Positions 19,438 to 47,743 of a stretch of 64,000 nucleotides of DNA are shown piece by piece. The translations under genes and the position numbers were made by a program. Source of the DNA: Prevotella sp. (GTDB lineage: Bacteria > Bacteroidota > Bacteroidia > Bacteroidales > Bacteroidaceae); the NCBI GenBank assembly GCA_016281055.1, contig JAEEHW010000134.1:51658-115657 (forward strand), given 5' to 3'. Position 1 is the first letter of the stretch, and each line of letters opens with the position of its first letter. Below the pieces are notes generated by a model. That model ran no database searches, was not told where the DNA came from, and saw nothing but the letters and a program-made list of their open reading frames with translations.

Positions 19438-19468
19438 AAAATTACGAAAAAAAGCCCATTCGTCCAAA
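19438..19468 (-). promoter_or_regulatory. promoter for the DUF4365-like gene (TTTG-N20-TAATTTTG)
   Basis: Minus-strand -33 TTTG and -7 TAATTTTG with 20-bp spacing, upstream of start at 19392. Confidence 0.5.
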
Positions 19469-19568
19469 TAAAATACCTAAATTGTTATTCTGGGCATCGC
19501 AGACACTACGATAAAAACCTCATTTTTAGGTATTGTGGGGAATGGGGAAAAGCAGTAACTTTGCACTC
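19465..19568 (+). promoter_or_regulatory. 104-bp regulatory cassette copy 1, with inverted repeat ATACCTAAA...TTTAGGTAT and -7 TAACTTTG
   Basis: Matches 29007..29110 without gaps, 5 mismatches counted by eye; TAACTTTG at 19556-19563. Confidence 0.9.
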
Positions 19569-19620
19569 GCAAACTCGCTAAGGCGACCACGAGCCTGCTG
19601 TGCAGACACTCGTTGTTTGC

Positions 19621-19719
19621 TTCGTGCGATAACATTGTCACTCGCAAATCAGAGACGTGCACCATTCTGGTGAATGACATGCACTATTTGTTTCGTGCGA
19701 TAACATTGTCACTCGCAAA
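19621..19719 (+). repeat. two identical 28-bp direct repeats TTCGTGCGATAACATTGTCACTCGCAAA
   Basis: Copies at 19621-19648 and 19692-19719. Confidence 0.95.
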
Positions 19720-19867: not shown

Positions 19868-19961
19868 AAAATGAAAAAGGGATACCACAAGACTAAAGCG
19901 TGGAAATCTTAACGCAAAGGCCTGTATGGCATCCCAAACAAAATTAGACGTTGCAAAGGTA
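19868..19961 (-). ncRNA. candidate small structured RNA (promoter + folded core + U-tract)
   Basis: Minus-strand TTG-N20-TACCTTTG promoter (-7 at 19954-19961), closing stem GGGAT/ATCCC, inner hairpins, then TTTTTCATTTT. Confidence 0.3.
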
Positions 19962-19962
19962 T

Positions 19963-22023
19963 ATGTTTTTTTTCAATAAAGCAAAATATTTCGGACGCAA
20001 AGCATTTTTTTGCGTTTTTTTAACCTTGCCTGCTTCTTTTACAGCAGCGCAGGACAGTACTTCCATAGGACAAAAGGACGTGGAACTCAGCGACGTGGTC
20101 GTGGAGGGTGGCACGGTGAGGAAATATCAGGGCACGGTGAATGCTGAGATGATTTCCACCACTGAACTTTTTCGCGCTGCCTGCTGTAATCTCGGCGAGA
20201 GCTTCTCAACCAATCCTTCGGTGGATGTGAGTTATTCTGATGCCGCCACTGGTGCGCAGCAGATAAAGTTGCTCGGACTTTCTGGCACTTACGTGCAGAT
20301 GCTGACGGAGAACATTCCCAACTATCGCGGCGCGGCTATGCCTTACGCCTTGAGTTATGTGCCTGGCACCTGGATGCAGAGCATACAGGTGTCGAAGGGG
20401 GCCTCGTCGGTAAAGAATGGTTATGAGAGCATCACGGGACAGATAAACGTGGAGTTTAAGAAACCGCAGGCAACGCAGTTTCTTGAGGCTAATGCCTTCC
20501 TCAACACTATGGGGAAATGGGAGGCGAACTTCCAGGGCAACCTGCACCTTGGAAAGAAATGGCGCACGGCGCTGCTGCTGCATTACGAAGACATGAACTC
20601 TGCCCACGACAGCAACAAGGACGGGTTTGTAGATATGCCCAAGGTGCGCCAATACAGTGCCATGAGCCGCTGGTTTTATAAAAGCACGCACCACATGTTG
20701 CAGTTCAGCATAAAGGGCATGAAGGAGAAACGTTGCGGCGGACAGATAGGGCATGACAGTCACCATGCGTGCGACCCTTACCTTATAAATATTGACAATG
20801 ACCGCTATGAGGCTTTTGCAAAGAATGCGCTTCTGTTTAACGACTCGCACAATACCAACATTGCGCTGATACTCTCTGGTTCACTGCATCTGCAGGATGC
20901 CGCATACGGCAACAGACAGTATGAGGTGAACGAGAAGAACTTCTATGCCTCGCTGATGTATGAGGCCGCCTACGGCGAGCACCACAGCCTGTCGGCAGGC
21001 ATTAGCCTTAATCATGACTATTTTAGTGAAGAGTTAAGAGTTAAGAGTGAAGAAGGTTCATCACATTTTTCACTTTTCACTTCTCACTTTTCACTTCTTC
21101 CCAAAGAAACCGTCCCCGGTGCATACGTGCAGTACACATATAAAGTGGGGGAGACGCTGACAGCCATGTGCGGACTGCGCATTGACCATAGCAATGTGTA
21201 TGGCACGTTCTGGACACCACGCGCACATGTGAAGTGGGCGCCGGGCAGCATTGTGTCGCTGCGCGCATCGGTGGGCAAGGGCTACCGCACGCCGCATGTG
21301 CTGGCAGAGAACAACAACCTGCTGGCAAGCAGCCGCAGTCTGCTGGTAAGTGAGCGGATAAGCCAGGAGGAGGCATGGAACTACGGCATCAGCATGCAGT
21401 GGAACATACCCGTAGCCGGCAAGACGCTGAACCTCAATGCAGAGTATTATTATACGAACTTCTTGCACCAGATGGTCATCGACATGGACACTGACCCACA
21501 CGCTGTGATGTTTCGCAATCTTGACGGCGACTCATATTCGCATACATGGCAGGTGGATGCTACATATCCGTTCTTTAGAGGTTTTACGGCAACAGCCGCA
21601 TATCGCCGCACAAACGTGAAGTGCACCTATGGCGGACTGCTGATGGAGAAACCGCTGACAAACCGCTACAAGGGACTGCTCACCATGTCGTACAAGCCCG
21701 GACTGGGGAAATGGCAGTTTGACCTCACGCTTCAACTGAACGGCGGCGGACGTATGCCTGCTGCCTATCAGAACGCTGACGGCACACAGTCGTGGGGCAC
21801 GGAGTTTAAGGCCTACGAACAACTCAATGCACAGGTGACGCGCTACTTCCGTCACTTCTCCATATATGCGGGTGGCGAGAACATCACGGGCTTCAAGCAG
21901 AAGAACCCCGTCATCGGTGCTGACAATCCGTGGGGCGACACGTTCGACTCCACAGTGGTATGGGGACCTATGCGCGGAGCAATGTATTACATTGGCATAC
22001 GCTTCAACTGGAAAAAGATATAG
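19963..22023 (+). CDS. TonB-dependent outer-membrane receptor
   Basis: Plug (VELSDVVVEGGTVRKYQGTVNAEMIS, GASSVKNGYESITGQINVEFKKP) and barrel with terminal aromatic strand; ATG at 19963 preferred over TTG at 19951. Confidence 0.9.
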   Translation: MFFFNKAKYFGRKAFFCVFLTLPASFTAAQDSTSIGQKDVELSDVVVEGGTVRKYQGTVNAEMISTTELFRAACCNLGESFSTNPSVDVSYSDAATGAQQIKLLGLSGTYVQMLTENIPNYRGAAMPYALSYVPGTWMQSIQVSKGASSVKNGYESITGQINVEFKKPQATQFLEANAFLNTMGKWEANFQGNLHLGKKWRTALLLHYEDMNSAHDSNKDGFVDMPKVRQYSAMSRWFYKSTHHMLQFSIKGMKEKRCGGQIGHDSHHACDPYLINIDNDRYEAFAKNALLFNDSHNTNIALILSGSLHLQDAAYGNRQYEVNEKNFYASLMYEAAYGEHHSLSAGISLNHDYFSEELRVKSEEGSSHFSLFTSHFSLLPKETVPGAYVQYTYKVGETLTAMCGLRIDHSNVYGTFWTPRAHVKWAPGSIVSLRASVGKGYRTPHVLAENNNLLASSRSLLVSERISQEEAWNYGISMQWNIPVAGKTLNLNAEYYYTNFLHQMVIDMDTDPHAVMFRNLDGDSYSHTWQVDATYPFFRGFTATAAYRRTNVKCTYGGLLMEKPLTNRYKGLLTMSYKPGLGKWQFDLTLQLNGGGRMPAAYQNADGTQSWGTEFKAYEQLNAQVTRYFRHFSIYAGGENITGFKQKNPVIGADNPWGDTFDSTVVWGPMRGAMYYIGIRFNWKKI

Positions 22024-22186: not shown

Positions 22187-22693
22187 ATGAAGAAAATTGG
22201 AATGTTTATGGCTGCCATGATGATTGCAGCCACAGGTTTTGCAAAAGACATCAAGACCGTAGTATTCAACACCGCACCTGAGATGCACTGCCAGAACTGC
22301 GAGAACCGCATCAAGGAGGGACTGAAGTTTGAGAAGGGCGTGAAGGACATCAAGACAGACTTGGAGACAAAGACTGTCACCATTGAGTATGATGCAGACA
22401 AGACCAGCACCGACAAACTCGTGGAGGCTTTCGCAAAGATTAACTACACAGCAACAGAGGCCAAGGCTGGTGGTTGCAAGTGTAAGCACGCTGAAGGTCA
22501 GGGTTGCTGCAAGAAAAAAGCAGAAGGCGAAGGCCATAAGTGTAAGCACGCAGAAGGCGAAGGTCACCATTGCAAGAAGGAAGGTGAAGGCCATCAGTGC
22601 AAGCACGCCGAGGGCGAAGGTCACCACTGCAAGAAGGAAGGCGAAGGCCATCAGTGCAAAAAGCATGCCCAGACAGCAGAAGAAACAAAGTAA
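22187..22693 (+). CDS. heavy-metal-associated (HMA) domain protein with Cys/His-rich repeat tail
   Basis: APEMHCQNCENRIKEGL (MxCxxC); tail GEGHHCKKEGEGHQCKHAEGEGHHCKKEGEGHQCKK. Confidence 0.9.
   Translation: MKKIGMFMAAMMIAATGFAKDIKTVVFNTAPEMHCQNCENRIKEGLKFEKGVKDIKTDLETKTVTIEYDADKTSTDKLVEAFAKINYTATEAKAGGCKCKHAEGQGCCKKKAEGEGHKCKHAEGEGHHCKKEGEGHQCKHAEGEGHHCKKEGEGHQCKKHAQTAEETK
22481..22675 (+). repeat. coding tandem repeats for KHAEGEGHHCKKEGEGHQC (19-aa / 57-bp unit)
   Basis: Visible in DNA and translation. Confidence 0.85.
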
Positions 22694-22765: not shown

Positions 22766-24043
22766 ATGAAAAAGATTTTCAGGAAACTCGCCGTGCTGGC
22801 ACTTGCGTGCCCGCTGGTACTTGCTGCGTGCAGCAGCGACGATGACGCACAGCGTCTTATCAATGTAGTGTTTAACGCAGCCCCTGCCGTTGACGGCACG
22901 CTCGAACTCAGTGCCCTGGAGGGTACAGAGGTGATGTTCACCGACGTGCGCAACCAGGATGCCAAGTCGTTTACGCTCGATGCTGAGGGTAAGGCAAACG
23001 TTGCAATCGCCCCAGGTACTTACAACATCTCTATCAGCAAGACTGTGAAGAACGAGCAGGGTGAGGACGTGAAGATGGCTATGGTTATGGAGAACGTGGC
23101 ACTGACACAAGACCTGCAGGTGGTTGACGGCAAGGTTACGTCGCTGCCGATGAGTGCGCTGGGCCAGGACTTCATCTTCTCTGAGGTGTTCTTCAACGGT
23201 GAGACAAACTCTGGTCGCATGATGCACCCCGATCAGTACATCGTACTTTTCAACCCAACAAACGAAACTCTCTATGCAGACGGTATCTGCATTGCCGTGA
23301 CACAGCACATCTCATGGTGGGACAAGAAGCCTTGGTATGACTCATTCTATCCAAACCGTGTGCCTATCGGTGGATTCATCACCATCCCTGGCAACGGCAC
23401 CGACGTGGCAGTGGCTCCAGGCGAGAAACTGGTCATTGCCTTCACTGCAGTGAACCACGCAGAGGTGGTTACGACAGTCAACGACGTAGAGATTGCTTAT
23501 GACCATGCCGTTGACCTCTCTGGTGCTGACTACGAGATATACTACGGTCCAGATGCAAGCGACGTGGACAATCCTGATGTGCCAAACGTGCTGATATCAG
23601 AGAACGGCGACTCTTACGGTTTCTTCTTCCAGCCACGCGGCTATGTAAGTCCGCTCATCTTCCGCCTTGCTGACGGCAAGCAGGAGACCATCGATGCCTT
23701 CATTGCTGCAAACGCAAGCAAGTTCACACAGACCACAGAAGAAGGCGACGTGGAGAGCGTAATCTGGTCGGTTGAGACAAGCAAGATTCTTGACGGCATA
23801 CAGACCAGCGATGTGCCGCAGGACGTGAAGACACGCTGCATCCCAGTGGTGGTTGACGAGGGTAAGTTCCTTGTAAACGGCTGTCACCGTCAGGAACTCT
23901 GCATCCGCAAGGAGATAAAGGTTGGCGACAAGATTTTCTATCAGGATACCAACAACAGCTCTGAGGACATGGAGGACGTGAACGAGCGCAAGGCCGCCGG
24001 CAAGTATCAGACAGCATTCCCTCTTGGTTGGAGAATAAAATAA
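22766..24043 (+). CDS. DUF4876-like lipoprotein
   Basis: Lipobox LVLAACSS; conserved EVFFNGETNSGRMMHPDQYIVLFNPTNETLYADG; TonB/DUF6850 neighbourhood. Confidence 0.75.
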   Translation: MKKIFRKLAVLALACPLVLAACSSDDDAQRLINVVFNAAPAVDGTLELSALEGTEVMFTDVRNQDAKSFTLDAEGKANVAIAPGTYNISISKTVKNEQGEDVKMAMVMENVALTQDLQVVDGKVTSLPMSALGQDFIFSEVFFNGETNSGRMMHPDQYIVLFNPTNETLYADGICIAVTQHISWWDKKPWYDSFYPNRVPIGGFITIPGNGTDVAVAPGEKLVIAFTAVNHAEVVTTVNDVEIAYDHAVDLSGADYEIYYGPDASDVDNPDVPNVLISENGDSYGFFFQPRGYVSPLIFRLADGKQETIDAFIAANASKFTQTTEEGDVESVIWSVETSKILDGIQTSDVPQDVKTRCIPVVVDEGKFLVNGCHRQELCIRKEIKVGDKIFYQDTNNSSEDMEDVNERKAAGKYQTAFPLGWRIK

Positions 24044-24284: not shown

Positions 24285-27047
24285 ATGATAACCCGACTAT
24301 TACTCTCTCTCCTCCTCGCCATCATCACGCTGGCGGCAGATGCCCAGACGTGCACGGTGAGAGGAAGGGTATATACAGAACACGATGGCGAGGCGGCAAG
24401 CTTCGCCATCGTGAGTATTAATTCGCAGGAACTAAAGACCGTCTGCGACATCAACGGACGCTTCGAACTGCACGGCGTGCCAGTGGGCAAGCAGGTAATA
24501 GAGGCGGAATGCCTCGGATATGCAACCACGAAGCATACCTTCACGGCATCGCAGGGCATGGCTGACATCCGTCTGACCCTGAAGAACAACAGCTTCGCCC
24601 TGCCCGAACTGCAGGTGATGGCAAAGAAAAGCCGCATGGGCAAGGTACTTGTTGACGAGACGGCGCTGGAGTACATACAGCCCACGTCGCTGGCCGACGT
24701 GATGCTCTTGTTGCCCGGCTCGGTGTATAAGGAGAACAACCTGACACAGTTTTCGCAGATATCGTCGCGACAGGTGGGCACGGATGCCAACACGTCGCTC
24801 GGCGTGGGCGTGGTGACCGACGGCGCACCGATGACCAACGACGGCGTGCGCACGCAGCTCGTGGGCGTGACCTCCAACTCGTCGGGCAGCAGCGACGGCG
24901 AGATAAAGAGTCGCACGGGCATGAACCAGGGTGCCGACATGCGCATGATTTCCACCGACCACATACAGAGCGTGGAGTTTACGCGCGGCATATCGTCGGC
25001 ACGCTACGGCAACCTATCAAGCGGCATGATAAGCATACAGTCGAAGCACGGCGTAACACCCCTGCGCATCCGACTGAAAAGCGACCTGAAGAACACCCTG
25101 GCATACGTGGGCAAGGGATTCCGCCTTGGAGAAAAGGCCGGCACACTGCATGCCGGACTGGATTTCCTGCACTCTATCGACGACATACGCGAGGAGATGG
25201 ACAAGTTTTCACGACTGACGGGACAGCTGTATTACAATAACCAGCTGATGCTGGGCGCATACAGGCTCAACCTTGATGCGCGCCTGAGCCAGACGCTGAC
25301 CGTCAGCAAAATGAAGAAAGACGAACTGACATACGAGTATGACGAGCTATACAAGGCCGACTACTCGCGCACGGCGCTGATGCTGAAGGGTGGGCTGACG
25401 CTGGGCAAGCCGTGGATGGACCAGCTGGAGATGGTATTGCAGGCAGACTATACCCGCGACCGCATTACGCGCCACCGCATGGTGCTATCTGGCACAGGTC
25501 CGCTCAACGTGCCGCTGGCCCATGAGGAGGGCGAGCACGAGGGCATATACCTGCCGCGCAAGTATTACAGCGACTTTTACATCGACAACAAGCCACTCAA
25601 CATCTATGCGCAGCTGAATGCCGTGTCGCGCCTTGCGCTCATGAGGCACACGATGCTTAACATGCAGTATGGTCTGGAATACACCAACGTGAAGAACCAC
25701 GGACAGGGGGCTGTCATAGAAGACGAGACGCGACCGCCGTTTCCCTACGACAACTCATACATGCGCCCGCGCCCCAACTGGGCCATACCGTCGCTGGGCA
25801 CGGGGGCAGCCTACATGCAGGCCGACTTCATATATGATGACAGGCAGCGCAACGTCGTCACGCTGTCACTGGGCGGACGACTGACCGAGATGATGAACCT
25901 GCCTTCAGACTATTACCTGCACCGCCGTGTGCTGGCAGACCCGCGCATGAATGTGTCATACACCTATGGTGCGCAGTGGAAGCACACGCTGCGCATGGGC
26001 TACGGCACGGAGAGCAAACTGCCCACGCTCGACTATCTCTATCCGGAGAAGCTATACAAGGACTTCTACATGCTCAATGCCTACACCTATGACCCGCAAT
26101 ACCGCCACCTGATAACATATACAAACATCTTTGACGTGACCAACACGCAACTCAAGGCCAACAAGAACCATAAGTTTGAGGTGGGATATGACCTGGACTA
26201 CAGGGGCTTCAGCCTGTCGCTGACGGGATTCTATGAGAAGTCAGACCATGGCTTCGAGTATTTCAGGCAATACATGCCGCTAACCTATGACCTGTATCAG
26301 ACACTGCGCGAAGGCGTGGACATCAGCGGCCGCACTCCGCAGAAGGAGGATTACGAGCATGAGCGATACACAGTCTTTACTACGGCGAGTCGTGTGCAGA
26401 ACTCAAGCAAGGTGACGAAGCGCGGACTGGAGTACCGCATCATCTTCCCACGCATAAAGAGCCTGCTGACAACGGTGGAGGTAAACGGTGCATACTACAA
26501 GACGGAGTATGCCTCGTCGTTGCCTGAGTATTACTATCCCGACGTCAGAATAGGCGGCAAGGAATATCCATACGTCTGCATATACGACCGCGATGCGCGC
26601 ACGGTGTATTCAAGGTTCAACTCAAACGTATGGTTCAACACCCACATACCGATGTTCAAACTCTTCATAACAAACTTCTTCCAGATAGTGTGGTATAACT
26701 CTTCGCAGTACAAGGACACTCACGACATGGTGCCGGTGAAATACATTGATTCCGACGGACTGGTGCATGACATGGATGATGCCATGCGCACCCTCATAGC
26801 TGCCGACGACCCAGTGGTGCGCTATTTCAAGCAGACGCTCGATCCTGCCAAATATGCATTGACGAAGAAACCTGTTTCGCTGCTGTGGAACATCAAGGCC
26901 ACAAAGGAATTCAAACGCGGCACGAAACTGTCGTTCTTCGTCAACGGACTACTCGACGTGAGTCCGGCATACGTAAGTGGCACAAGCATTACGAAACGCG
27001 AATGGCACGACCCGTACTTCGGACTGGAACTGTATGTTAATTTATAG
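24285..27047 (+). CDS. TonB-dependent receptor with N-terminal carboxypeptidase-regulatory-like domain
   Basis: CTVRGRVYTEHDGEAASFAIVSINSQELKTVCDINGRFELHGVPVG; plug and barrel. Confidence 0.9.
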   Translation: MITRLLLSLLLAIITLAADAQTCTVRGRVYTEHDGEAASFAIVSINSQELKTVCDINGRFELHGVPVGKQVIEAECLGYATTKHTFTASQGMADIRLTLKNNSFALPELQVMAKKSRMGKVLVDETALEYIQPTSLADVMLLLPGSVYKENNLTQFSQISSRQVGTDANTSLGVGVVTDGAPMTNDGVRTQLVGVTSNSSGSSDGEIKSRTGMNQGADMRMISTDHIQSVEFTRGISSARYGNLSSGMISIQSKHGVTPLRIRLKSDLKNTLAYVGKGFRLGEKAGTLHAGLDFLHSIDDIREEMDKFSRLTGQLYYNNQLMLGAYRLNLDARLSQTLTVSKMKKDELTYEYDELYKADYSRTALMLKGGLTLGKPWMDQLEMVLQADYTRDRITRHRMVLSGTGPLNVPLAHEEGEHEGIYLPRKYYSDFYIDNKPLNIYAQLNAVSRLALMRHTMLNMQYGLEYTNVKNHGQGAVIEDETRPPFPYDNSYMRPRPNWAIPSLGTGAAYMQADFIYDDRQRNVVTLSLGGRLTEMMNLPSDYYLHRRVLADPRMNVSYTYGAQWKHTLRMGYGTESKLPTLDYLYPEKLYKDFYMLNAYTYDPQYRHLITYTNIFDVTNTQLKANKNHKFEVGYDLDYRGFSLSLTGFYEKSDHGFEYFRQYMPLTYDLYQTLREGVDISGRTPQKEDYEHERYTVFTTASRVQNSSKVTKRGLEYRIIFPRIKSLLTTVEVNGAYYKTEYASSLPEYYYPDVRIGGKEYPYVCIYDRDARTVYSRFNSNVWFNTHIPMFKLFITNFFQIVWYNSSQYKDTHDMVPVKYIDSDGLVHDMDDAMRTLIAADDPVVRYFKQTLDPAKYALTKKPVSLLWNIKATKEFKRGTKLSFFVNGLLDVSPAYVSGTSITKREWHDPYFGLELYVNL

Positions 27048-27217: not shown

Positions 27218-28867
27218 ATGAAACGTATAATATATATAATGATTTGCGTGGTTGCAGCAACGTACGCAGCGGCGCAGGAGCCTGTCAGTCTGTCGCTCTC
27301 ACCAGCAGAACAGCGGCAGACCGCATTTGCCGCCACTGCCGACCGCAGCAGTCACAATGCATTGACGGATAACCCTGCATGGCTTGCTACAAAGCAGTTT
27401 GTGGGCGATACCACAGCGTTGCAGGGACTGGTATATGCCGGTGTGGCGGGCTCTGACAGCGACGGCGACTTCATGCACTATGAGGGCACAGGCACTACCG
27501 ACTGGCGCATAGGAGCCAGTGGCACCTACGTCACGCCGCACAGCGGAACCCTCTCGGGCAGCATACAGTATGCGCGCGGCAAACACCGCAACATCGGGTG
27601 GAGCGCCATGCGTATGCCCGAACTATACTTGCCCTACATCTCTACAGATTCATGCGGCGGCGACTTTAAGTTTGACAGCTACTATGCCGAGGGCGCATAC
27701 TCCTTCAGCATCAACACATGGACGCTGGGGGCGCGTATGTCGTTCTACGGCGAACAGTCGTGGCGACTTACTGATCCTCGTGCGCTGAACAACACCACAT
27801 GGCTGCGCTTTACCGCCGGAGCAACTAAGCAACTGGGGCAGCACCTCGTGATGCTTAGTGCCGGCTACGGGCGCAACAAACAGCATGAGCAACTGCGCTA
27901 TTGGCGTCCGGGACAGCAGGACCGCTTCTTCGTGTGCTATGGCTTCGGACTCTACGATACACGCCAGAGTGCAGTGTCGTTTGGCAAGGCTCGTATGTTC
28001 TACATAGACGAGTTCACCGCACGTCTGCAATATCTCTCACCTGCATCAAAAGCCCTGCGGCTGCATGCCTCGTTAGGATATACCCACCACAGCATGGCGA
28101 CGGAGGAGAGCGATATATACAACCTTTATGAGAGCCGAACCGGCATCATCGAGCCACAGATGGTGCTTGCGTGGCAACCGGATGAGAGATGGACGGTCAC
28201 GCTGGGTGCCAGTGCAAGCATTGAGGCTCGCAAGGGCTATGAGAACATAATAGAGGAATATCTTGCCAATGCCGACTACAACAGTTATGACTTCCGCACC
28301 ATCGACTCGCAGCAGAACTATGTCAGGGATGTGAACACGGCTGATGTCTCGCTGAGTGTCTCAAGGCAGTTCGGCAGGCTTTCACTCACTGTCCTTGGCG
28401 GGATGTCAGCCAACGGCTATGAAGAGAAATACCTCGGCGGCGTGTATAGCATAAAGGTGAATACCTCCATGCCTTACGTCGGACTTGAAACCGGCTGGCA
28501 GGCAGGTCGCCGCGATGTGCTTGCCATGTCACTCCGCTATGGCAAGAGCACCGTAGGTTCGCACCATTACGACGTTTTGATGCAGAACACCAAGGTGAAG
28601 CACCTCGACTTTCAGCAGGCTTTCGCACCCTACGCCTATCGTGTGGCAGACCTGACGAAGTTCGCTCTTTCCCTCTCATGGGAGCACAGTCTCGCTCACC
28701 TCACCGTAGGATTGTCGGCAAGCTATTATTCAGCCAGCGGCGACCGTCTGACAGACGCTGTATATACCGGTACCATAGGCTATACCTCCACCGCCCCTAT
28801 GATTTCCGTTAATCCCGATGCTCACAGAGAGCACAGGGGCAGCCTTACAGCATATGTGAGGTTCTGA
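27218..28867 (+). CDS. DUF6850-like outer-membrane beta-barrel protein
   Basis: Signal peptide, alternating aromatic strands ending SLTAYVRF; next to DUF4876/TonB genes. Confidence 0.75.
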   Translation: MKRIIYIMICVVAATYAAAQEPVSLSLSPAEQRQTAFAATADRSSHNALTDNPAWLATKQFVGDTTALQGLVYAGVAGSDSDGDFMHYEGTGTTDWRIGASGTYVTPHSGTLSGSIQYARGKHRNIGWSAMRMPELYLPYISTDSCGGDFKFDSYYAEGAYSFSINTWTLGARMSFYGEQSWRLTDPRALNNTTWLRFTAGATKQLGQHLVMLSAGYGRNKQHEQLRYWRPGQQDRFFVCYGFGLYDTRQSAVSFGKARMFYIDEFTARLQYLSPASKALRLHASLGYTHHSMATEESDIYNLYESRTGIIEPQMVLAWQPDERWTVTLGASASIEARKGYENIIEEYLANADYNSYDFRTIDSQQNYVRDVNTADVSLSVSRQFGRLSLTVLGGMSANGYEEKYLGGVYSIKVNTSMPYVGLETGWQAGRRDVLAMSLRYGKSTVGSHHYDVLMQNTKVKHLDFQQAFAPYAYRVADLTKFALSLSWEHSLAHLTVGLSASYYSASGDRLTDAVYTGTIGYTSTAPMISVNPDAHREHRGSLTAYVRF

Positions 28868-28901
28868 AAGTAAAATTGATTGGGAAGAAAGAAGAAGGAA
28901 G

Positions 28902-29202
28902 GTTTATTAGTAAAACAAGCAAACCTACAACTTTCATCAATCCACCCTTCATCCAAAAACATCAATCCACCCTTCAACTCTTCAATTCTTTAATTCTTCA
29001 ATTATACAAATAAAATACCTAAATTGTTATTCTGGGCATCGCAGACGGCATGATAAAAACCTCATTTTTAGGTATTGTGGGGAAGGGGGAAAAGCAGTAA
29101 CTTTGCACTCAGAAATGAAGAAGGTTGGAGGGAATAAGGAGGAATGTTTATTAGTAAAACAAGCAAACCTTCAGCTTTCATCAATCCATCCTTTATCCAA
29201 AA
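28902..29202 (+). repeat. 57-bp direct repeat pair flanking the promoter cassette (28902-28958 and 29146-29202)
   Basis: GTTTATTAGTAAAACAAGCAAACCTnCAnCTTTCATCAATCCAnCCTTnATCCAAAA, 4 mismatches. Confidence 0.9.
29007..29110 (+). promoter_or_regulatory. 104-bp regulatory cassette copy 2, upstream of flavodoxin
   Basis: Near-identical to 19465..19568; -7 TAACTTTG at 29098-29105. Confidence 0.9.
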
Positions 29203-29226: not shown

Positions 29227-29721
29227 ATGAAAAAGACTATTGTAGTATTTGGCAGTTCTACGGGAACTTGCGAAGGAATTGCTGGCGACATCGCTGCAAA
29301 ACTCGGTACTGAGGCAATCAGTGTCAGCGACCTCACTGCTGACGTGATAGCAGAGAACGAAAACCTCATTCTCGGAACGTCCACATGGGGCGCTGGCGAG
29401 GTGCAGGATGACTGGTATGACGGACTGAAAGTGCTGAAAGGCGCTGACCTCAGCGGCAAGACAGTGGCACTCTTCGGCTGTGGCGACTCGGCATCGTACT
29501 CCGACACCTTCTGCGGTGGCATGGCAGAGATTTACAATGCGGCAAAGGCGGCTGGCGCAAACATCATCGGTGCCGTTGATGCTTCTGAATATAGCTATGA
29601 TGACTCAGAGGCCGTGATTGACGGCAAGTTCGTAGGTCTGGCACTCGACAACGACAACGAGGAGGGCAAGACCGCTGGCCGCATAGATGCGTGGGTGGCT
29701 GCAATCGGTCAGTCATTATGA
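29227..29721 (+). CDS. fldA: flavodoxin
   Basis: TIVVFGSSTGTCEGIAGDIAAKLG; GTSTWGAGEVQDDWYDGL; GCGDSASYSDTFCGGM. Confidence 0.95.
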   Translation: MKKTIVVFGSSTGTCEGIAGDIAAKLGTEAISVSDLTADVIAENENLILGTSTWGAGEVQDDWYDGLKVLKGADLSGKTVALFGCGDSASYSDTFCGGMAEIYNAAKAAGANIIGAVDASEYSYDDSEAVIDGKFVGLALDNDNEEGKTAGRIDAWVAAIGQSL

Positions 29722-29740: not shown

Positions 29741-30184
29741 ATGAATCCATACAGCGACAACAAAATAGATGCTCCCATCGGCTCTGATGCTCCGATGCGC
29801 GTATTGATGAACCACATATACGAATATCAGAAGGGCGTGCGCCGCATGGTGCTATATACCTTCAACAAGAAGTATATGCACTATGCCGTGGAACGGCTGG
29901 AGCGCCAGGGCATAGACTATGTGGTGTCACCGTTGCAGGGCGACAACGTCAACCTGTTCTTCGGACGCAGGGAGTGCCTGGATGCCATACGCATGATAGT
30001 GGTGCGCCCGCTCAACCAGTTGTCGCCGGAGGAGGACTTCATTCTTGGTGCCCTGCTTGGCTACGACATCTGCATGCAGTGCGAGCGTTATTGCGACCGC
30101 AAGCAGAGGTCGTGTGAAGCCAAGGGGATTTTTCAAAAGCGTACGTCCACGCCTGCCATGACGGTGGCACGCGGCATGGGGTAG
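29741..30184 (+). CDS. DUF2023 family protein
   Basis: MRVLMNHIYEYQKGVRRMVLYTF...CMQCERYCDRK; partner of flavodoxin. Confidence 0.8.
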   Translation: MNPYSDNKIDAPIGSDAPMRVLMNHIYEYQKGVRRMVLYTFNKKYMHYAVERLERQGIDYVVSPLQGDNVNLFFGRRECLDAIRMIVVRPLNQLSPEEDFILGALLGYDICMQCERYCDRKQRSCEAKGIFQKRTSTPAMTVARGMG

Positions 30185-47585: not shown

Positions 47586-47675
47586 TAATAAAAGGACAGA
47601 CTTCACAGTCTGTCCTTTTAATCTATACAAAAACATTATGAACTTTTATCTTATCAACAAATTGTTGTTAATTTC
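47586..47675 (-). ncRNA. candidate ~90-nt small RNA between cassette-type promoter and terminator
   Basis: Minus-strand TTTTAGGTATTGT-N18-GTAACTTTGCA upstream, strong terminator downstream, no CDS between. Confidence 0.3.
47590..47619. terminator. 13-bp perfect hairpin, bidirectional terminator
   Basis: AAAAGGACAGACT-TCAC-AGTCTGTCCTTTT. Confidence 0.85.
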
Positions 47676-47678
47676 ATA

Positions 47679-47714
47679 ATGCAAAGTTACTAAGTTTTTA
47701 TATATTGTACAATA
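47679..47714 (-). promoter_or_regulatory. third, reduced copy of the cassette promoter half
   Basis: Same 13-mer and same spacing as the 104-bp cassettes; AATACC-N8-GGTATT palindrome extends to 47717. Confidence 0.55.
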
Positions 47715-47743
47715 CCTAAAACAAGGTATTTCATGAAACTCAC

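Follow-up and report, generated by a model that had tools for sequence, protein, structure and literature searches.

An operator shared by iron-associated promoters of Prevotella, with a candidate CdhR-like regulator and a candidate small RNA

The duplicated cassette and its genes

We analysed a stretch of 64,000 nucleotides (hereafter the window) from contig JAEEHW010000134.1 of a Prevotella sp. genome (GCA_016281055.1), in which a 104 bp promoter cassette is found twice on the forward strand, at 19465-19568 (copy 1) and 29007-29110 (copy 2). A search within the window aligns the two copies without any gap and with 5 mismatches (95.2% identity, E 4e-43), exactly as an initial annotation of this DNA had described them, and a chance origin of the match is negligible. 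The genes which that annotation had placed behind the two copies are likewise those found with Pfam, all on the forward strand. Copy 1 is the promoter of an operon encoding a TonB-dependent receptor (19951-22023), an HMA-domain protein with His/Cys-rich repeats in its tail (22187-22693), a DUF4876 protein (22766-24043), a TonB-dependent receptor with a carboxypeptidase-regulatory-like domain (24285-27047) and a DUF6850 protein (27218-28867). Copy 2 is the promoter of the flavodoxin gene fldA (29227-29721) and of the gene of a DUF2023 protein (29741-30184). The tail repeats of the HMA protein are encoded in tandem at 22518-22664 and read GHKCKHAEGEGHHCKKEGEG; they form a possible metal-binding tail.

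Both cassettes have the composition of a vegetative Bacteroidota promoter, that is, a TAnnTTTG box with a TTG about 20 bp upstream. The -7 box TAACTTTG is located at 19556-19563 in copy 1 and at 29098-29105 in copy 2, in each case 20 bp past the main operator O2, AAAACCTCATTTTTAGGTATTG (19514-19535 and 29056-29077), whose TTG is the -33 element and lies, as first annotated, inside the right arm of an inverted repeat. The two arms, ATACCTAAA and TTTAGGTAT, are indeed present at 19473-19481 and 19525-19533 in copy 1 and from 29015 and 29067 in copy 2, with a gap of 43 bp between them in both copies. A single dyad with a 43 bp loop is the poorer description of them: each arm fits the operator by itself, so that we dropped the idea of one stem-loop and prefer to describe two separate operators, O2 and an upstream operator-like site O1, AATACCTAAATTGTTATT (19472-19489 and 29014-29031). 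When the cassette region was compared with Rfam, microRNA matches at chance level were all that came out.

Over the whole 3.17 Mb genome there are only two full copies of the cassette, plus one partial copy of 40 bp (C112:136-175). Hence the cassette is not a dispersed repeat, and the reading of the initial annotation, which would have fallen with a widespread mobile repeat, stands in this respect. The comparison with the nearest relative, Prevotella sp. RGIG1502 from goat abomasum, tells more about the origin of the near identity. The fldA promoter of this relative is 88% identical over the 104 bp, and its TonB-operon promoter has kept 80% of about 55 bp. The TonB promoter of our genome matches the fldA promoter of the relative over 225 gap-free bp (90.7%), past both ends of the cassette, whereas the fldA promoters of the two genomes have only the 104 bp in common there. 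The fact that the former match is longer than the latter indicates a recent copying of promoters between the two sites, and the identity over the full 104 bp is the result of such recent copying and not of constraint. The conservation of the spacer had been taken as a sign of a co-regulated module; a shared site of iron type remains of this argument (see below), while the roughly 50 bp centre can no longer be counted as constrained. Relatives retain the operator of about 22 bp, the -7 box and often a second half-site. One could go further and see in the cassette a mobile promoter or a recombination relic devoid of any shared regulation, as the copying between sites would allow; but with just two full copies in the genome, and with the operator part kept ahead of iron genes in hundreds of genomes, we hold this to be extremely improbable.

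A direct repeat of 76 bp (88%), at 28883-28958 and 29127-29202, brackets copy 2 and may mark the route by which the cassette was inserted. This repeat, like the third operator and the leader hairpins behind copy 1 described below, does not figure in the initial annotation.

The operator across the genus and the genes behind it

The DUF4876 gene, taken as a genus-wide query, was found in only 4 of 150 genomes; the TonB operon is therefore rare, and fldA was used for footprinting instead. In front of the Prevotellaceae fldA orthologues, which were fetched by protein similarity, the right part of the cassette alone persists, as AAAAxCATnATTTTTAGGTATTG followed by 20 bp and TAnnTTTG. The initial annotation had proposed to look for the repeat in related Prevotella genomes. 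Its own 32-mer, a query too long and too specific, had no exact match in the contigs of relatives, although another genome search did recover the sister copy. The pattern TTTAGGTATTG-N20-TAnnTTTG is present in 246 of the 276 Prevotella genomes and the reversed pattern, used as a control, in 0. When spacings from N15 to N20 were searched, all the matches listed had N20; the spacings from N21 to N40 combined gave, among the matches listed, at least 18 in 17 genomes. In 90 promoters of the genus, informative positions also extend to the left of TTTAGGTATTG, the consensus being AAAAATCATTATTTTTAGGTATTG. In 35 of them, against 7.3 expected, ATACC or GGTAT recurs at most 45 bp upstream as a second half-site. 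The conserved unit is thus the operator of about 22 bp, AAAATCATnATTTTTAGGTATTG, whose terminal TTG is the -33 element and stands exactly 20 bp ahead of the -7 box. The right arm and some 10 bp to its left form a genus-wide operator with a fixed spacing to the -7 box. A search of the literature for the motif string brought nothing relevant.

Which genes lie behind this operator? In our genome it stands ahead of the TonB operon and ahead of fldA; its other matches there are at a TetR gene and an MMPL-type gene on contig 120, and at 47.7 kb of the window. A Pfam scan of the first gene behind 87 matches in the genus gave TonB Plug (26 genes), flavodoxin (24), CarbopepD_reg_2 (16), the chelatase CbiX (4), hemerythrin together with GerE (3), TetR and LCM (3 each), PepSY_TM (2) and DUF4876 (1). 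According to published transcriptomes, low iron induces fldA and DUF2023 about 160-fold in P. intermedia, where TetR/ABC/MMPL operons also respond strongly; in P. gingivalis, DUF4876/TonB genes go up 21- to 214-fold, and in B. thetaiotaomicron hmu, fldA and the hemerythrin-LuxR genes BT0519-0520 are induced (PMC10434189); the words "motif", "promoter" and "binding site" do not occur in that article. The gene content behind the operator (fldA-DUF2023, TonB, DUF4876, TetR/MMPL, hemerythrin-LuxR) is that of the published classes induced by low iron. A shared regulatory site of iron type, in line with the iron or redox regulator put forward in the initial annotation, is strongly supported both by the genus-wide operator and by the downstream genes, and very probably a single conserved factor serves iron genes through this operator.

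A CdhR-like protein as candidate regulator

Our genome encodes one hemerythrin protein, which is fused to a GerE domain (G000:C106; PF01814 1.6e-14, PF00196 8.6e-18), and a hemerythrin-GerE gene exists in 59 of 60 genomes of the genus. The same two domains are known from CdhR of P. gingivalis (PG1237, with the hemerythrin PG1236) and from BT_0519-0520 of B. thetaiotaomicron, which differ from the present protein in that the domains are here fused in one chain; the CdhR counterpart of P. intermedia is likewise reported to be a fusion (PMC10434189). The promoter of the regulator gene in our genome has the operator in the opposite orientation, AATACCTACAAATGAGTATTG-N20-TAACTTTG. Many of the regulator promoters of other genomes have the inverted operator AAATACCTAnnnATnATGATTG-N20-TAnnTTTG, and some have it in the orientation seen at fldA. 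An order-wide search brought 5 matches in genomes of other families at 121-181 bp from a hemerythrin-GerE gene, where about 0.015 were expected; 3 of them are upstream on the same strand and 2 are divergent. In P. gingivalis, CdhR is described as activating hmu, and in a PG_0686 mutant hmu, PG1019-1020, PG1178-1181 and cdhR rise together (PMC10101095); it has also been published as an activator of hmuYR and as iron-responsive. The literature searched, which leaves the original CdhR papers outside, mentions neither an operator of CdhR nor a regulon spanning the genus, nor does it connect CdhR with a small RNA. From the site at its own promoter we infer that the CdhR-like hemerythrin-LuxR protein is probably the binder of the operator.

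The inverted arrangement bears on another reading, in which TTTAGGTATTG-N20-TAnnTTTG would be recognized by an alternative (extracytoplasmic function, ECF) sigma factor and would not be an operator at all. The rigid 20 bp spacing speaks for it, and the P. gingivalis factor SigCH is reported, in what PMC10434189 relays of that work, to act on cdhR and hmuYR. But a sigma factor would not tolerate the inverted element found at regulator promoters, the -7 boxes are ordinary vegetative ones, and additional half-sites lie upstream in 35 of the 90 promoters. As the element works inverted too, we rejected this reading, which we hold to be very unlikely.

The operator is centred some 9 bp ahead of the -33 TTG, near -42, and either end of the operator can supply this TTG. 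A centre near -42 with the TTG coming from either end is the geometry of class-II activators, as at the lux box and at NarL sites. Taken together with the use of both orientations, this position fits a dimeric class-II activator. The putative site resembles LuxR/NarL class-II sites such as the lux box by its centre near -42, by its abutting the -33/-35 element and by the GerE-type helix-turn-helix of the candidate protein; it departs from the lux box by its unequal halves (AATCAT / TAGGTATT).

We propose the following mechanism. Each cassette is a vegetative promoter (-33 TTG, 20 bp, TAnnTTTG) with an operator of about 22 bp fused to the -33 element and a second operator-like site some 42-47 bp upstream. 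A single transcription factor would read the operator and thereby tie iron uptake (the TonB/HMA/DUF4876 operon), iron sparing (flavodoxin replacing ferredoxin) and a small RNA, described below, to iron limitation. This factor would most likely be the CdhR-like protein, with hemerythrin as the sensor and a LuxR/GerE helix-turn-helix whose predicted target is TCATTTTTAGGTATTG at O1 and O2; it would work as a dimeric class-II activator when the di-iron site of hemerythrin is empty, loss of iron being the presumed signal. Its hemerythrin domain points to a sensing of iron, of oxygen, or of the two together. Whether the factor activates or represses is, in our estimate, an even choice, and repression may proceed by occlusion of the -33 element. 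The explanation as a whole, a CdhR-like factor acting on the operator and coupling uptake, flavodoxin and the small RNA to iron limitation, we regard as reasonably likely.

Several observations weigh against it. About half of the 30 CdhR promoters inspected in the genus have no clear site in a simple scan, and the operator ahead of the regulator gene could make of the CdhR-like protein a mere target. TetR and Fur-like proteins exist in the group, and TetR genes sit in the regulon. Certain operator matches stand before genes that have no known tie to iron (enolase, phosphoglycerate mutase). The support in this organism comes from sequence.

The operator might instead belong to another metalloregulator, a repressor of the Fur or DtxR family blocking the -33 element when iron is plentiful. 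An overlap with the -33 element is a frequent position for repressors, the half-site TTAGGT recalls those of DtxR/IdeR, and the low-iron genes of P. gingivalis include one of the DtxR family. Yet the motif is unlike the Fur box: no Fur-box-like operator was recognized when the 90-promoter consensus was compared by eye with the Fur box. Moreover, none of the 87 downstream genes was recognized as encoding Fur or DtxR, while the hemerythrin-GerE gene recurs there and retains the site in other families, and the fur locus of B. thetaiotaomicron is reported to be unaffected by iron. We therefore consider such a repressor rather unlikely. The present system shares with the Fur regulon of other bacteria an operator at the promoter and, in the proposed mechanism, the switching on of iron uptake and flavodoxin without iron; it differs by the operator itself and by its probable sensor, the hemerythrin-LuxR protein.

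A third operator, a candidate small RNA and leader hairpins

A third operator, AAATACCTTGTTTTAGGTATTG, is found on the reverse strand at 47710-47731, with its -7 box TAACTTTG 20 bp past it (47682-47689). It is followed by no open reading frame (ORF), and after about 90 nt comes a strong hairpin resembling an intrinsic terminator (47590-47619). The third operator thus appears to drive a candidate small RNA of about 90 nt, at 47586-47680 (ends approximate). A 99 nt stretch at this place folds 5.6 standard deviations better than shuffled sequences, and its conserved core TTCATAATGTTTTTGTAT occupies 47625-47642 (an exact 19-mer in 21 loci; as TTCATAATGTTTTTGTATA, exact in 21 of 326 loci). The 29 distinct copies that could be aligned consist of ATCTTGTTCGCgAAAT (in most of them), the core and the terminator, in which compensatory changes occur at 9 of 9 pairs, with 84 double-changed cells against 26 in shuffles. 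Some copies follow an operator promoter at a distance of 35-145 nt, and the others lie downstream of fldA or of fldA-DUF2023; no genome was seen with both arrangements, most genomes being viewed only in part. As a freestanding unit, with an iron operator, a promoter and an intrinsic terminator but without any ORF, it is found on the reverse strand at 47586-47731 of the window and at five other loci (L093, L132, L157, L167, L295). The small RNA has no match among Rfam families. Its core might have been read as a small peptide (ATGTTTTTGTAT, MFLY), which we rejected as the codons that follow are not conserved.

The candidate may be an iron-sparing RNA, and it would be induced by a lack of iron only if the operator acts as proposed. 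In Segatella buccae (G207, loci L327-L386) there are 8 runs of complementarity of 11 nt or more, where mononucleotide shuffles give about 0.5; over 1.2 Mb of the same genome, targets predicted from duplex energies did no better than shuffles. Three start regions of this genome, at 1792813, 2028762 and 1990870, have 10-12 nt of complementarity to the small RNA and belong to genes which we take, from their protein sequences, to be rlmN, pyruvate:ferredoxin oxidoreductase and ilvD; having been chosen in hindsight, they serve as leads and nothing more. The candidate resembles RyhB-type small RNAs, being short, with a conserved unpaired core and an intrinsic terminator, here behind a presumably iron-regulated operator. 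It differs from them by having no sequence relation to them nor an Rfam match, and by its frequent place in the 3' untranslated region (UTR) of the fldA operon. We could not find a description of it in the literature searched; should it spare iron, its role would be one that no RNA described in that literature plays in the phylum.

We put forward, tentatively and at somewhat less than even chances, that Prevotella possesses an iron-limitation system which does not rest on Fur, in which a hemerythrin-LuxR regulator and its operator would control uptake, flavodoxin and an undescribed iron-sparing small RNA of about 90 nt, alone or in the fldA 3' UTR. Prevotella is among the most abundant genera of the gut and the rumen, and the analysis yields a concrete operator with its conserved regulon, names a candidate for the regulator and adds a candidate small RNA, all of them directly testable.

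Finally we must note two hairpin units in the leader behind copy 1, on the forward strand. The first, of class B (19563-19629; model R2, 98.6 bits), was also recognized by its fold and begins at the transcription start region; the second, of class A, lies at 19638-19700 (model R1, 84.6 bits). The models have 48 matches in our genome. The units are 66-75 nt long and often in tandem; their beginning coincides exactly with the transcription start region (TTT|GCACTC), and the genes concerned are unrelated. In the loci inspected (L003, L009, L014, L018, L020, L221-L250) the series opens at GCAC right behind the -7 box. Partly by our own reading, we take the genes behind them to be glutamine synthetase-like, SusD-like and proA-like, with one tRNA. 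The stems of the units covary, and the arms next to the start differ between loci, each with a matching partner. Units were found in 8 of 120 sampled genomes of relatives, and the loci tested have no match among Rfam families. Since the genes behind them are unrelated, the units probably do not belong to the iron switch; they are apparently an undescribed family, either a mobile hairpin or a leader element.

Other leaders have features of their own. In four loci (L083, L091, L097, L103) the stretch from the operator promoter to the first ORF contains terminator-like hairpins, which may be an attenuator or belong to another short RNA, and in two (L147, L164) a long leader of about 400 bp separates the operator promoter from fldA.
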